54,563 nucleotides of DNA, taken from the NCBI GenBank assembly GCA_026989455.1, contig JALSJH010000093.1, positions 1 through 54,563 on the forward strand. The letters are read 5' to 3'. Source of the stretch: Chromatiales bacterium. Its GTDB lineage: Bacteria > Pseudomonadota > Gammaproteobacteria > RBG-16-57-12. Shown here one piece after another: positions 43,843 through 50,725 of the stretch (position 1 is the stretch's first letter; every line of letters begins with the position of its first letter). Position numbers and translations under genes: made by a program. The notes beneath the pieces are model-generated. The model was not told the origin of the DNA, did not search any database, and was given only the letters and a program-made list of their open reading frames with translations.

Positions 43843-44166
43843 TTATTCAACCACTTTCATTAATTGATCCACCGTGAGCGCAACGATTCCAAACATTAAA
43901 TGTGCCATCACCTTGGCATGACCCCGCACTCGAACCCTACGCGCACCGAATTCATCTTTGATTCGCCCATTGACCCGCTCAACTGTGCTGCGCTCATTGT
44001 AGCGTTGATCTTCAGCGGTCACGTAGTTTACTCTCTTGCGCCGTTTTGCTTCTGTTTCCAGCGCTGCTTTTTTTACTTTACTGCGAGGATTAGTGTCAAT
44101 GATCGGAACATGCCCTAAACCTTTACTATGATCCTTGATCTGTGGCGCATCATAGGCGGCATCCAT
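43843..44166 (-). pseudogene. IS transposase C-terminal fragment (DDE type)
   Basis: About 107 residues starting DAAYDAPQIKD contain a DDE-transposase second Asp (DAAYDA), GHVPIIDTNP and the third acidic motif YNERSTVERVNGRIKDEFG with ARRVRVRGHAKVMAH. This is the C-terminal half of an IS4/IS5-like transposase. The N-terminal half is missing: TAA stands just before the ATG, and sequence from an hsdS gene follows. The C-terminus is intact. About 200 bp of probable IS flank separate it from the hsdR fragment. No complete IS boundary can be fixed. Confidence 0.78.
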
Positions 44167-45598: not shown

Positions 45599-46198
45599 AT
45601 GAGAATTTCGATTAAACCTATGGCAGGATTAGCTTTGGTGGTTTTGCTGGCCGGCTGTAGCGGCCAAGAGAAGATTGTTATGGATGTGCCTGATTGCGTA
45701 TTCCCGGACTCACCTACCGTAGCGGCACCTGCGTGGATTTGTGATGCACCCGTTGAAGGCATTGAAGTCAGTGCCGTGGGTATGTTCCGAAAAACAAATG
45801 CTGGTGCTCAGTTCCAAAAAACTCAGGCGACAGCGGCTGCCAGAAACATGTTAGCGGCACAGATGAAAGTTCATGTAAAACAGCTGGTGAAAAACTACTC
45901 GGAAGTGACCGGTGTGGGTGATGATGAGACGGTTGATACGGTGAGCTCTGATGTGAGCAAACAGGTAACTGCGGCCACTTTATATGGTTCAAAAGTTTAC
46001 AAAACACGGGCCAACCCTGAAACAGGCGCACTCTATGTTTTGGTGGGTTTAGATCCGGATCAAGCGGCTGCACAAGCGACAGAGGCGCTAAAAACAAGCT
46101 ACAAAAACAAAAAGGCACAGTGGCAGAAGTTTCTCGCGGGTAAAGCTCATGACGAGCTAGATGCTGAGTTTGAGAAGATCGCTAACCAGGATCTTTAA
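45599..46198 (+). CDS. LPP20-type lipoprotein
   Basis: The protein has 199 residues. MRISIKPMAGLALVVLLAGC is a lipoprotein signal with lipobox LAGC. The mature part, with PAWICDAPVEGIEVSAVGMF and KTQATAAARNMLAAQMKVHVKQLVKNY, resembles the LPP20/LPP20-like domain: short Trp-containing strand, Gly-rich turn, then a long Ala-rich helix. GGAGGGAG precedes the ATG. It is the first of four linked envelope genes. A terminator follows it. The second LPP20-type protein of the cluster is at 49694. Confidence 0.8.
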   Translation: MRISIKPMAGLALVVLLAGCSGQEKIVMDVPDCVFPDSPTVAAPAWICDAPVEGIEVSAVGMFRKTNAGAQFQKTQATAAARNMLAAQMKVHVKQLVKNYSEVTGVGDDETVDTVSSDVSKQVTAATLYGSKVYKTRANPETGALYVLVGLDPDQAAAQATEALKTSYKNKKAQWQKFLAGKAHDELDAEFEKIANQDL

Positions 46199-46222
46199 TA
46201 CCGTATTCGAGAAGGTGTTCAT

Positions 46223-46266
46223 AAAAAACCGCTACTGATAGATGAAATTATTGGTAGCGGTTTTTG
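46223..46266 (+). terminator. Terminator after the first LPP20-type gene
   Basis: ACCGCTAC and GTAGCGGT arms near 46228-46235 and 46254-46261 close an 18-base loop and extend through A and T runs. Five T residues follow. It lies about 25 bp past the stop. Confidence 0.8.
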
Positions 46267-46329
46267 TGTATCTAAAACCTCGATTTTCCCTGCGGAAGCT
46301 CTAAAAAATGACAAAACAAGGAAGCGTAG

Positions 46330-47820
46330 ATGGGTATTCATGATGGAGGCGGGTTAACCCTGATAAACAGAGTCGGACTGATCACGGCTCTTATGCTCTC
46401 TTTTCAAGCAACGGCAGAGAGTGAGTTCGACCTGTGGATGAAGCAGCAGTCGGATGGTTTTTCGTCGTATCAAGAGAAACACGACCGTGAGTTCTCCTCT
46501 TTTTTAGAAGCGGATTGGAAAGCCTTTCAGCTTAATCATGGTGCCAAGCGAGATGAAGTGCCCAAGCCGGTCACACTCCCTACAGCACCCGAACCTGCGG
46601 TCACTAAACCGACGCCCAATACACCCCCTGAAAATCTTATTTCAGTCAAAGAGCGGTTAACGCCGGTTGTTAACCCACCCATAAAAAAACAGCCCCCTCC
46701 AAGCCCCGAAAAAACCATGGTGGGTGAGCGGATTGATGTCGATTTTTTAGGCAGCACACTCCCCCTTTATCTGGAAAAAAGAGTCCAAATCTCTTTAGGC
46801 AGAAGTATTGATAATAAGAGCATTGCGCTTTTTTGGGATCAAATCAGCTCATCACCCTACACGCCTTTAATTGAGCAGATTAATGCTTATCGCAAAACCA
46901 TCGAATTTAATGATTGGGGAACTGTTCAGCTGATTAATGCGCTGGCCAACACCCTCTACCGCCCGCAATCAAATGAAGCACACCTCTTTAGCTGGTTTTT
47001 ATTGGTTAAATCCGGTTATGCCGCCCGCATTGGTTATACAAAAAACCGCATTCACCTGATGTTGCCATCACAAACAAAACTCTTCGGCATGCCCTATTTC
47101 ACCTATGACAAGGTGCGTTACTACGTGATTACCCGTAAAAAAGGCCAAGACCTGGGCTCTGTTTTCTCATATGAAGGGAGTTATCCCGATGCCACACGAA
47201 AAATGAACCTCTATATATCCAATACTCCTTCACTGAAAGTCGATAAAACAGAGAAGGTATTGAGATTCAATTATGCCAACAAACAGCATGAGTTCAGTAT
47301 CAACTACGATAAAAATGCAGCCCGTTATTTTAAAGATTACCCGGCCACGCAACTTAGCGTCTATTTCAACGCCACTATTTCCGATAGCCTCAAGCAGTCA
47401 CTCCTGCTCCCACTGGGCCAACTGGTGGAGGGAAAGAGCGAACAAGAGGCGGTGAATATCCTATTGCGCTTTGTACAGACCGCATTCGCTTATAAGACAG
47501 ACGATGAGCAGTTTGGACGGGAAAAATACTTCTTTCCGGAAGAGCTGTTTCTATACGATTACTCTGACTGTGAGGACCGCTCGGTACTGTTTGCCTATTT
47601 GGTCAAAACACTACTGGGCCTGGAGGTGGTTGCCGTGACCTTCCCGGGGCATGTCGCCACCGCAGTGCATTTTAGTCGCGATATTGCAGGTGCCAGCGTC
47701 AAAAAAGAGAACAAAAAGTATCTCATTGCCGACCCGACCTATATCAATGCCAATGTTGGCATGATCATGCCCCAATTTAAGAGTAGCGCCGCAAAAGTTA
47801 TCTCAATTAGTGACATTTAA
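46330..47820 (+). CDS. Secreted transglutaminase-like protein
   Basis: The protein has 496 residues from the ATG at 46330, behind AAGGAAG. The signal peptide ends about FQATA. A Pro-rich linker (about 75-130) follows a short charged region. The C-terminal domain has the transglutaminase/papain-like triad pattern: Cys414 in YSDCEDRSVLFAYLVKTLLG, His441 or His447 in GHVATAVHF, and Asp468 in LIADPTY. Bacterial members include proteases and crosslinking enzymes; activity here is unproven. The COG3014-type gene starts 17 bp after its stop, so they are co-transcribed. Confidence 0.82.
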   Translation: MGIHDGGGLTLINRVGLITALMLSFQATAESEFDLWMKQQSDGFSSYQEKHDREFSSFLEADWKAFQLNHGAKRDEVPKPVTLPTAPEPAVTKPTPNTPPENLISVKERLTPVVNPPIKKQPPPSPEKTMVGERIDVDFLGSTLPLYLEKRVQISLGRSIDNKSIALFWDQISSSPYTPLIEQINAYRKTIEFNDWGTVQLINALANTLYRPQSNEAHLFSWFLLVKSGYAARIGYTKNRIHLMLPSQTKLFGMPYFTYDKVRYYVITRKKGQDLGSVFSYEGSYPDATRKMNLYISNTPSLKVDKTEKVLRFNYANKQHEFSINYDKNAARYFKDYPATQLSVYFNATISDSLKQSLLLPLGQLVEGKSEQEAVNILLRFVQTAFAYKTDDEQFGREKYFFPEELFLYDYSDCEDRSVLFAYLVKTLLGLEVVAVTFPGHVATAVHFSRDIAGASVKKENKKYLIADPTYINANVGMIMPQFKSSAAKVISISDI

Positions 47821-47837
47821 AATTATGGGTATGCATT

Positions 47838-49634
47838 ATGTTAATAAGGATTAGATTTCATAGCGTAAAAGTTGTGCTCGGATTGTTGCTGGTGGCTATT
47901 GCAGCCTCAGGCTGTGCGATTAACCCAGCAGGAAAAGATCGCAATACCAGCGCACAGCTCAGCGAAGCGCTGCGTGCAAACAACTATACTGGCGCACAAA
48001 AGACCATTGCCGATGCCTATGACGATAAAAAAAATCGCTCGCTTATGCTGATGGAGGGCGGACTTGTTGACTACTTGAGCAAAGACCATCAACAGAGCAT
48101 TCACAGGCTAAATGAAGCGGAGGTGTTAACCGACGAAGCAGAAACAAAAAGAGTCAGTGAGTACCTGAAATCGATAATGGCAGGGCCTACCAGCCTCAGC
48201 TATGGTGGGGCACTTTTTGAGCGGGCATATATCCACTACTATAAAGCGATGAACTTCCTGGCTCTGGCTAACAACCACACAGGAAATGACAGAGAGGATG
48301 CACTGGAAGGTGCGCGGATTGAAGCACGCAAAATCGACCGATTACTCAATAGCATTCAAGATCAGGAGCCTACCTATGACGAGGCAAAAGAGGGTAAGGA
48401 GTCTACTTTTAAACAGATGACACTGCTGCTGCGTGGTTTATACGGAAGAACCCTTGACCGAGACGCACTCGCATACCGTGAGGATGCCTATATACGCTAC
48501 ATGGAAGGGGTTATCTATGAGTCCAATGGTGAATTGGACAGTGCCCGCATTGCTTATCAAGGCGCTGCAAACCTGTATGAAAAAGGGTATGCCAAGCAGT
48601 ATGGCCTTGGGCAAGCCATTGTCGAGATGGCATGGTTTGAAGTGGTTCGCGTCATGCGCAAAGCGGGTGGATATAGAAATGAAGTTGCCGACCTGACAAA
48701 GCGCAAGCTTTCAAAAGAGATGGAACAGCGACTAAATGAGTTTGACCGAGACAGCGCTCAATTAGTGGTTATTAATCACATCGGCTTTGCTCCCAAACCT
48801 AAAGAGATGGTGCTGCGCCTTCAGCTCGACACCCAGACCAAAGAGTTGATACTTACACCGGCTGTTTTGGTTCCAGGCTTGATTTCAACCTCAGACAGTG
48901 TCGATCCTATTGATATTAAAGAGCAGTTGATGTGGTTCAATGGGATGTACTCTGACCGTGGAATAGTTGACATCATCTCTAATTATAAAAAGCGCGGTGT
49001 TTATGGTGTGGTCCAGGGCATGATGGAGAAGCGCACCTCCATCGCCCCCCTCTGGTCAGTGGCGGAAGAGAGCGGTTTGGTATCTGGGCTAGATTGGGGT
49101 GGAACCATTGTTCAGGTTCCCTATTTAGGCTCCATCGCCACTGACTTTGATAGCAGCCAAGTCACCCTTGATGGCGAGAAAAAAGGTACCATGATTGCTG
49201 CCGAGTCCATCGCCACCATTGCACTGCAACAGCAACTGCTCGGTGCCGGAAGTGGTCTGCGCGCAGCCTTGGCACGAGAGCTAACAAAAGTAGCTTTTTG
49301 TACTCAAACGGCAAAAGCTGCGGGGGGTGGATTTAAAAGCGAGATAGCCAAAAAGCTCTGTATTCTTGGTTTTGGCATGGTATCGGGCGCGGATACTCGA
49401 AGCTGGTCGACACTGCCCCACACTATTATGATACAGCGCTTTGCCGTAGAGCCTGGACAACATACGGTAACCATAACGACCCCTCGGGCGGGTGGAGGCA
49501 TTTTTCATCACGCCGAATATGAAATTGAGATCAAAAAGGGGCAGTTAATGGTACTCAAAAACCGCGCAGTTGCAGCAGCCCCGGTTGCTACAGGCCAGTT
49601 AATAGCCACTCAATCTGGGCAAAACATAGAGTGA
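47838..49634 (+). CDS. COG3014-type lipoprotein
   Basis: The protein has 598 residues. LGLLLVAIAASGC provides the lipobox. The first 300 residues are TPR-like helices (RSLMLMEGGLVDYLSKDHQQSIHRLNEAE, YIRYMEGVIYESNGELDSARIAYQGAANLY). The second half is beta-rich: GGTIVQVPYLGS, TWS-like TRSWSTLPHTIMIQRFAVEPG and HTVTITTP. The whole resembles the COG3014 family of conserved lipoproteins, whose role is unknown. It is likely anchored in the outer membrane. Its neighbours are the transglutaminase-like protein and the second LPP20-type lipoprotein. Confidence 0.8.
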   Translation: MLIRIRFHSVKVVLGLLLVAIAASGCAINPAGKDRNTSAQLSEALRANNYTGAQKTIADAYDDKKNRSLMLMEGGLVDYLSKDHQQSIHRLNEAEVLTDEAETKRVSEYLKSIMAGPTSLSYGGALFERAYIHYYKAMNFLALANNHTGNDREDALEGARIEARKIDRLLNSIQDQEPTYDEAKEGKESTFKQMTLLLRGLYGRTLDRDALAYREDAYIRYMEGVIYESNGELDSARIAYQGAANLYEKGYAKQYGLGQAIVEMAWFEVVRVMRKAGGYRNEVADLTKRKLSKEMEQRLNEFDRDSAQLVVINHIGFAPKPKEMVLRLQLDTQTKELILTPAVLVPGLISTSDSVDPIDIKEQLMWFNGMYSDRGIVDIISNYKKRGVYGVVQGMMEKRTSIAPLWSVAEESGLVSGLDWGGTIVQVPYLGSIATDFDSSQVTLDGEKKGTMIAAESIATIALQQQLLGAGSGLRAALARELTKVAFCTQTAKAAGGGFKSEIAKKLCILGFGMVSGADTRSWSTLPHTIMIQRFAVEPGQHTVTITTPRAGGGIFHHAEYEIEIKKGQLMVLKNRAVAAAPVATGQLIATQSGQNIE

Positions 49635-49693
49635 GCGCTTTCGTGCGCAAGAGATGTAACGGACTCTAAATAACAACAACACAGGATGAAAGC

Positions 49694-50725
49694 ATGTACA
49701 GAACATACTCGGCACTTTTAGTGCTTTTAATCACAACCCTATTGGTAGGTTGCCAAACGGCACCCAAACAGAAAGGGAGCGATTTTTCCGACGACAAGCC
49801 CGACTGGATTTTAAATACACCCATTAAAAGCGGCTTCATCTATGGTGTCGGTTCGGCAGAGGTATTTGGCGGTAATGAAACAGCGGCGCTAAGCCGTGCA
49901 AAAGATTTCGCCCGAATTGAGTTAATTAAACAGATTGAAGTTGAGATGCAAGGCAGTGTTGAGCAGGAGATTTCTGAAATTACGCGCAATAATAAAAGCG
50001 AATTCACCGAACAGCTTCGCCAGACAGTCTCCAGTCGAGTACCTGAATTCAAGCTCTCTAATGTTGAACAGGTTGACTCATATAGTGATGAGAAAAATCG
50101 CCAGGTTGCGGTATTAGTAAAATTTGATGTCAACGAAGAGATTCAGTCATTGAAGGGAGAGATCCGCTCACTCGACCAGCAACTACAAGAGATCGATGAA
50201 ACACTCTCGCAAAACCAAAAAAGAGGCCTCACTCGCCTACGCACCGCCACCTCAGCACTGGTACTCGCCGACCAGCGGGCGGGCTTGCAAGCACGCCTCA
50301 ATCAACTGCAATCGGGTGCAGAGCGAGAGCCGCTGCTCACCAAGCCGATACGCCAACTTATCGCAAAAGTTTATAAAATAACCTCCGAGATAAAAGTCGC
50401 TCTGCGAGCAGAGAAAAAGAGTGAGCGAGCACTGCAAGTCGGGCTAATTGCCCAGCTGACTAAAAGAGGATTAACCGTATCAGAAGAAGGCGCGCATGAT
50501 ATTGAAATTGTCTATGGTGTGAGTAGCAACACCATCAAACGCGGTGATATGAACTTTGTGGTCACCGAAGGAAATATCTGGGTAAAAGATGATGCCGGAA
50601 AGATCATTAACGCCGTACAGAAAAGAGTGAAAGGTGCCTCGATAGATCCAAAACTCGCCCACTCTCGTGCGATTGAAAAACTATCAGAAAGCTTGGGAGA
50701 AGCGTTAGTGGACGCACTGTTTTAA
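49694..50725 (+). CDS. Second LPP20-type lipoprotein with coiled coil
   Basis: The protein has 343 residues. LLVLLITTLLVGC carries the lipobox. PDWILNTPIKSGFIYGVGSAEVFGG followed by AALSRAKDFARIELIKQIEVEM is a better LPP20-type match than the protein at 45599. A probable coiled coil lies at about 155-185 (IQSLKGEIRSLDQQLQEIDETL). The C-terminal 100 residues resemble a small alpha/beta domain. It is 59 bp after the COG3014-type gene and probably in the same transcript. The function is unknown; LPP20-type proteins occur in outer-membrane assemblies. Confidence 0.8.
   Translation: MYRTYSALLVLLITTLLVGCQTAPKQKGSDFSDDKPDWILNTPIKSGFIYGVGSAEVFGGNETAALSRAKDFARIELIKQIEVEMQGSVEQEISEITRNNKSEFTEQLRQTVSSRVPEFKLSNVEQVDSYSDEKNRQVAVLVKFDVNEEIQSLKGEIRSLDQQLQEIDETLSQNQKRGLTRLRTATSALVLADQRAGLQARLNQLQSGAEREPLLTKPIRQLIAKVYKITSEIKVALRAEKKSERALQVGLIAQLTKRGLTVSEEGAHDIEIVYGVSSNTIKRGDMNFVVTEGNIWVKDDAGKIINAVQKRVKGASIDPKLAHSRAIEKLSESLGEALVDALF

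Follow-up and report, generated by a model that had tools for sequence, protein, structure and literature searches.

A two-module gene cluster of lipoproteins and a transglutaminase-fold protein, possibly linked to peptidoglycan remodelling, in a Chromatiales bacterium

The window considered here is a stretch of 54,563 nucleotides, contig JALSJH010000093.1 (G000:C93) of assembly GCA_026989455.1, from a Chromatiales bacterium whose genome is a 2.37-Mb gammaproteobacterial draft, 99% complete. Calling of open reading frames (ORFs) placed four genes on its plus strand, at 45599-46198, 46330-47820, 47838-49634 and 49694-50725, separated by gaps of 131, 17 and 59 bp; the smpB/tmRNA genes lie on one side and uvrB on the other, both on the minus strand. 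An earlier note, made from the letters of the sequence, had described four genes clustered in one direction, the last three closely spaced, encoding three lipoproteins and a secreted protein. This description was confirmed. The four genes are two modules standing side by side and form no single conserved unit: one comprises a COG3014-type lipoprotein and a second LPP20 protein (LPP20#2), of the kind that accompanies LpoB, and the other a first LPP20 protein (LPP20#1) and a protein likely to have a transglutaminase fold, judging from its model (hereafter TG). At about even odds, the cluster encodes components of an accessory complex for peptidoglycan synthesis and remodelling that is anchored in the outer membrane and elaborates the LpoB-PBP1B activator operon, with TG as a docked hydrolase.

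The first gene (45599..46198) encodes LPP20#1, a lipoprotein of 199 amino acids with its lipobox cysteine at position 20 (LAGC). Its PF02169 score of 34 bits against a cut-off of 25.9, together with the lipobox, a 34-member alignment and gene adjacency, identifies it as an LPP20 lipoprotein. LPP20#2 (49694..50725), of 343 amino acids with Cys20 (LVGC), comprises an LPP20 domain, a probable coiled coil and a C-terminal domain. It scored 25.3 bits as a protein and 28 bits in a six-frame search, so that of the two LPP20-type lipoproteins named earlier the first is secure and the second borderline. Between them, TG (46330..47820) is a secreted protein of 496 amino acids with a signal peptide and no lipobox, and a lipobox-like match occurs in 2 of 98 TG proteins. 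The COG3014-type lipoprotein (47838..49634; 598 amino acids, Cys26 in ASGC) takes its label from the earlier note, and a real family behind the label was confirmed. Its model (pLDDT 85.6, pTM 0.85) shows a TPR-like alpha-solenoid at about 30-300, followed by beta domains with a long helical hairpin at about 305-577, which agrees with the TPR and beta domains read before. Foldseek returned TPR proteins of a general kind, among them BamD and MamA, and a role as scaffold is plausible on the model. Neither TG nor the COG3014-type protein matched a Pfam family above cut-off or an NCBIfam family. Under the Lol sorting rule, the residue after the lipobox cysteine determines membrane sorting; since this residue is Ser, Ala and Gln in the first, third and fourth proteins, respectively, all three are predicted to be anchored in the outer membrane. 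Outside the cluster, a fragment similar to an IS5-type transposase adjoins the tmRNA gene (43843-44166, minus strand).

The COG3014-type gene was found in 57 of 370 evenly drawn gammaproteobacterial genomes. LpoB was present in all 57 of these, and the two genes lie within 5 kb of each other in 53; in one of these genomes (G369), LpoB is matched by a short fragment adjacent to COG3014. The main gene orders are COG3014, a YcfL-like protein of about 140 amino acids and LpoB, or COG3014, an LPP20 protein of about 350 amino acids and LpoB; the YcfL-like protein was DUF1425 in the one tested. LPP20#2 is of the type found beside COG3014 and LpoB. These arrangements recall the LpoB-PBP1B system and the ycfL-lpoB (ycfM) neighbourhood of E. 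coli, in that the COG3014-type gene nearly always neighbours LpoB, with the YcfL-like protein in many cases lying between them. The host genome encodes its LpoB on another contig (G000:C35:1408-2013), away from the window, and a PBP1B-type UB2H domain on contig C37. UB2H is the LpoB-binding domain of PBP1B. The window cluster differs from the E. coli neighbourhood in lacking lpoB and ycfL and in having the LPP20 proteins and TG in addition, and a role of COG3014 in PBP1B activation is putative.

TG has a different distribution. Counting strong matches only, it occurs in 15 of the 370 genomes, and at least 559 relatives were found in a scan of GTDB species genomes, in groups including Gammaproteobacteria, Cloacimonadota, Calditrichota, KSB1, Bacteroidota and Desulfobacterota. 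Neighbourhood clustering placed an LPP20 gene within 6 kb of TG in 30 of 34 proteobacterial loci, and of the 32 loci with a gene upstream of TG, 28 have LPP20#1 directly before it on the same strand. An LPP20 gene is also near TG in Calditrichota (5/6 loci) and KSB1 (2/2). Two further records encode an LPP20#1 that is 63-65% identical to that of the window (L007, labelled Flavobacteriales, and L008, labelled Manganitrophaceae); they may be mis-binned gammaproteobacterial DNA and were therefore left out of the evidence for spread. The family appears to be chromosomal. A Bacteroides record described as a plasmid (L006, NZ_OY725910.1), with the TG ORF close to its end, also carries the housekeeping-type genes dprA and peptidase U32, and thus may be chromosomal DNA. 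KSB1, Poribacteria and other groups encode caspase-like (peptidase C14) proteins with CARDB-like repeats in the vicinity of TG and LPP20 genes (L040, L067, L020, L032, L060).

The two modules tend to occur in the same genomes. COG3014 is present in 12 of the 15 TG genomes against 45 of the 355 others (Fisher P 2e-8, a value inflated by the shared ancestry of related genomes, which weakens it but leaves the recurrence across families and phyla unaffected). They co-occur in 7 of 10 TG families, even where the genes are unlinked (G054, G109). In a sister species (G001, L093) one place holds LpoB, LPP20#2, COG3014, LPP20#1, a small LPP20-like gene, TG and an MltC-type lytic transglycosylase; LpoB, COG3014, LPP20 genes, TG and a FecR gene stand together in Calditrichota (L059/L080), and the Bacteroides record has an LpoB-family protein (PF13036, 25.5 bits), DUF6175, two LPP20s and TG in a row. 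The survey of co-occurrence therefore speaks against the single cassette implied earlier and in favour of two strongly conserved modules that co-occur across genomes. An alternative which we regard as improbable, yet the least so of those considered, is that COG3014-LPP20#2, derived from the LpoB operon, and LPP20#1-TG are independent modules juxtaposed by rearrangement and do not act together. The exact order of the window is indeed confined to two species of its genus (G000 and G002), TG is not adjacent to COG3014 in most genomes, and LpoB is unlinked in the host; against this stand the genome co-occurrence and the joint loci of Calditrichota, G001 and Bacteroides.

A further connection among these proteins is found in an aromatic repeat. 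TG is predicted to consist, from N to C terminus, of a repeat-bearing helix, a proline-rich linker, a non-catalytic N-terminal domain and a catalytic C-terminal domain. The repeat module (46420..46530, plus strand), a predicted helix, contains F33/W36, F44/Y47, F55/F58 and F66, with an aromatic period of 11 and the pattern F-x2-[YFW]-x7. A hidden Markov model (HMM) built from TG residues 24-70 only was run against 1402 ORFs of the loci compared. Outside TG, it matched almost only the N-termini of MltC-type proteins and the C-terminal tails of FecR-domain proteins, and these took every place below E 0.009. The lag-11 autocorrelation z was 26 for TG, 18 for MltC and 8 for FecR, where the FecR tails were chosen without pattern selection and the TG and MltC segments were picked by motif, so that their z is partly built in. 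A combined repeat profile matched proteins in 10/10 TG genomes and in 0/8 TG-less ones, namely TG, MltC and, in G109, G125 and G369, unlinked FecR-domain proteins; some matched sequences had trained the profile, while those in G054, G082, G024, G125, G224 and G369 had not. In G369 (L258), the repeat-bearing FecR-domain protein is preceded by a VWA-like lipoprotein (286-930 and 952-1716). The sharing of this repeat among TG, MltC and FecR-domain proteins is previously unremarked.

The MltC-type lytic transglycosylases are linked to TG in several genomes, and the host copy (G000:C18; L212 1444-2718) has the repeat and lacks a lipobox. A lipobox is present in 0/5 MltC proteins of TG genomes versus 10/10 of TG-less genomes. 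The proteins of TG genomes have the 11-residue repeat in common with TG (degenerate in one of the five, L214), whereas those of TG-less genomes are lipoproteins without it (10/10). This opposition suggests that in TG genomes the repeat has taken over from the lipid anchor of MltC. The FecR-domain proteins with the repeat likewise lack a lipobox (0/8). The repeat fits a docking helix that would hold soluble proteins at a common partner.

The Cys-His-Asp triad proposed earlier for TG proved to be real. In 65 aligned members, D413-C414-E415-D416-R417, H441 and D468-P469-T470 are invariant, and the codons of the three triad residues lie on the plus strand at 47569..47571 (Cys414, in D-C-E-D-R), 47650..47652 (His441) and 47731..47733 (Asp468, in D-P-T). 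The TG of the window gave no Pfam match at E<=1, and its sequence did not qualify it for the PF01841 clan; other members of the family gave weak matches to PF01841 (21/66, best E 4.5e-4) and PF04473 (19/66). In the AlphaFold2 model (mean pLDDT 87.6, pTM 0.85), a long helix (11-61) and a proline-rich linker lead to two domains. C414 opens a helix (414-429), H441 opens a strand (441-447) and D468 follows a strand (462-467), an order of elements that, in the model, corresponds to the transglutaminase-like arrangement. The two domains (residues 134-280 and 306-491; window 46729-47169 and 47245-47802) have the same modelled order of strands and helices, and the first domain is perhaps a degenerate copy of the catalytic one. 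Profiles of residues 133-280 and 306-491 gave no significant match to each other (E 0.08), and an internal duplication is therefore not claimed.

Comparison with known folds leads to the protease LapG, a calcium-dependent periplasmic protease of transglutaminase fold (PMC4359373). The top Foldseek matches of the TG model in the PDB were a putative protease (3kd4) and LapG (4fgp, 4fgo), with probabilities of 0.80-0.98; those to LapG reached 0.97-0.98, with TMt 0.46-0.49. In hhalign, TG and LapG (PF06035) aligned at E 0.011 over 46 columns, in the Cys region only, and TgpA-type domains aligned with Cys and Asp in register and His out of register. Sequence searches of solved structures with TG alone and with the TG profile gave nothing credible. 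The alignment of the triad with transglutaminase structures, whose failure would have counted against the reading of the earlier note, is thus supported indirectly, by the order of elements, the positions of Cys, His and Asp and the LapG probability, but by no match at E < 0.001. TG resembles LapG (Peptidase_C93) in its transglutaminase-like fold, its periplasmic location, its Cys-His-Asp residues and the DCED motif, whose acidic residues flank the nucleophile in both; it differs in the extra N-terminal domain, the proline-rich linker, the repeat helix and the gene company. That TG is a LapG-like regulatory protease cleaving a surface adhesin or another envelope protein, with the lipoproteins as regulators and the cell-wall link secondary, has slightly poorer prospects than the juxtaposition by rearrangement discussed above. 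The LapG fold matches, the best supported, and the LapG motif at the nucleophile speak for it; however, PF06035 had no match in the host genome, neither a LapD-like partner nor a gene for a large adhesin was noticed among the recurring neighbours of TG, these neighbours are peptidoglycan genes, and the repeat in common with MltC points to the wall.

The same fold and invariant triad would suit TG as a genuine transglutaminase, with envelope proteins or lipoproteins as substrates that it cross-links to one another or to peptidoglycan. We consider this quite unlikely, because the nearest fold matches are proteases and no conserved acceptor or donor partner was identified. Least credible of all, hardly worth entertaining, is a motility accessory with the LPP20 lipoproteins as flagellar, FlgP-like parts: FlgP is itself an LPP20 protein (PF02169, the domain found in LPP20#1 and at borderline score in LPP20#2), but the FlgP/FlgT-like pair of the host lies elsewhere in the genome, the LPP20 proteins of the window are tied to TG or to COG3014 and LpoB, and no flagellar genes were noticed among the recurring neighbours of TG or COG3014. 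In that pair, apart from the cluster, the third LPP20 protein of the host genome (G000:C2; L092 3671-5588, minus strand) stands beside a FlgT-like protein.

From the gene content, the triad conservation, the fold, the operon and genome co-occurrence, the shared repeat and the absence of the anchor in MltC of TG genomes, all computed here, we infer a physical complex. The COG3014-type TPR lipoprotein and the LPP20 lipoproteins would together make up a platform beside LpoB, on the periplasmic side of the outer membrane. TG would be a soluble periplasmic cysteine hydrolase of transglutaminase fold, kept at the platform by its repeat helix, and the MltC-type lytic transglycosylase and the FecR-domain protein might be docked there by helices of that kind. 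TG would most likely cut an amide bond in the stem peptides or cross-links of peptidoglycan, or in a peptidoglycan-associated protein. In this manner the cutting of glycan and peptide would be coupled to synthesis by PBP1B. The broader proposal, that this is an undescribed envelope machine in which the repeat helix serves as a docking code replacing lipid anchors and recruiting TG, the lytic transglycosylase and the FecR protein to the LPP20/COG3014/LpoB platform, is advanced tentatively, with somewhat less than even confidence.

The links to peptidoglycan are drawn from the gene company, namely LpoB, MltC and, in Cloacimonadota, a class A penicillin-binding protein (PBP). There, with the genes identified from their sequences, TG usually follows a class A PBP and a glycosyltransferase, in that order, the PBP lying two genes upstream. 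Contigs of Cloacimonadota and similar ones (L015, L022, L026, L034, L038, L039, L046, L048, L052, L053, L055 and L071) have a well-conserved order of class A PBP, glycosyltransferase, TG, nucleotidyltransferase, PSP1-like gene and rlmN, with no LPP20 genes. Several observations count against the accessory complex. The 21 Cloacimonadota TG loci have no LPP20, COG3014 or LpoB nearby, TG is not beside LpoB in most genomes, and among the TG genomes G006 and G049 have no LpoB match and G142 a weak one only. The LapG fold match is weak by E-value (0.05-0.09), no Foldseek match fell below E 0.001, and the profile-profile matches of TG are marginal (E 0.01-0.06). Finally, the repeat could bind the membrane, the main alternative to docking, or form a homo-oligomer.

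The outer-membrane machine suggested earlier thus stands as envelope lipoproteins grouped with a transglutaminase-fold Cys-His-Asp protein and linked to peptidoglycan; its secretion and surface-layer roles are not supported, as none of the genes noticed to recur near TG or COG3014 was of either kind. The suggestion that the system is undescribed has held, since none was found in the literature searched for COG3014, LPP20, transglutaminase and LpoB. COG3014 was named in no paper found by this search, the co-mentions of LPP20 and transglutaminase concerned other subjects by their titles and abstracts, and that of LPP20 and LpoB an H. pylori lipoprotein only. Comparable lipoproteins have been described. 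NlpI is an outer-membrane lipoprotein that in E. coli scaffolds peptidoglycan hydrolases with PBP1A/LpoA (PMC7049810); LpoP is a TPR lipoprotein that activates PBP1B (PMC7943195). By analogy, the COG3014-type protein may be likened to these TPR-type outer-membrane lipoproteins tied to peptidoglycan synthases or hydrolases; it differs in its large extra beta domains, and the comparison concerns role rather than sequence.

Outside E. coli, it is still open how hydrolases are retained beside peptidoglycan synthases. The proposed complex would give a concrete pathway to a widespread unnamed family, with more than 550 matches in species-representative genomes, and would connect the COG3014 and LPP20 lipoproteins, so far orphans, with LpoB. 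It also makes the testable prediction that three distinct envelope proteins have a docking helix in common; in one of them, this helix seems to have taken the place of the lipid anchor.

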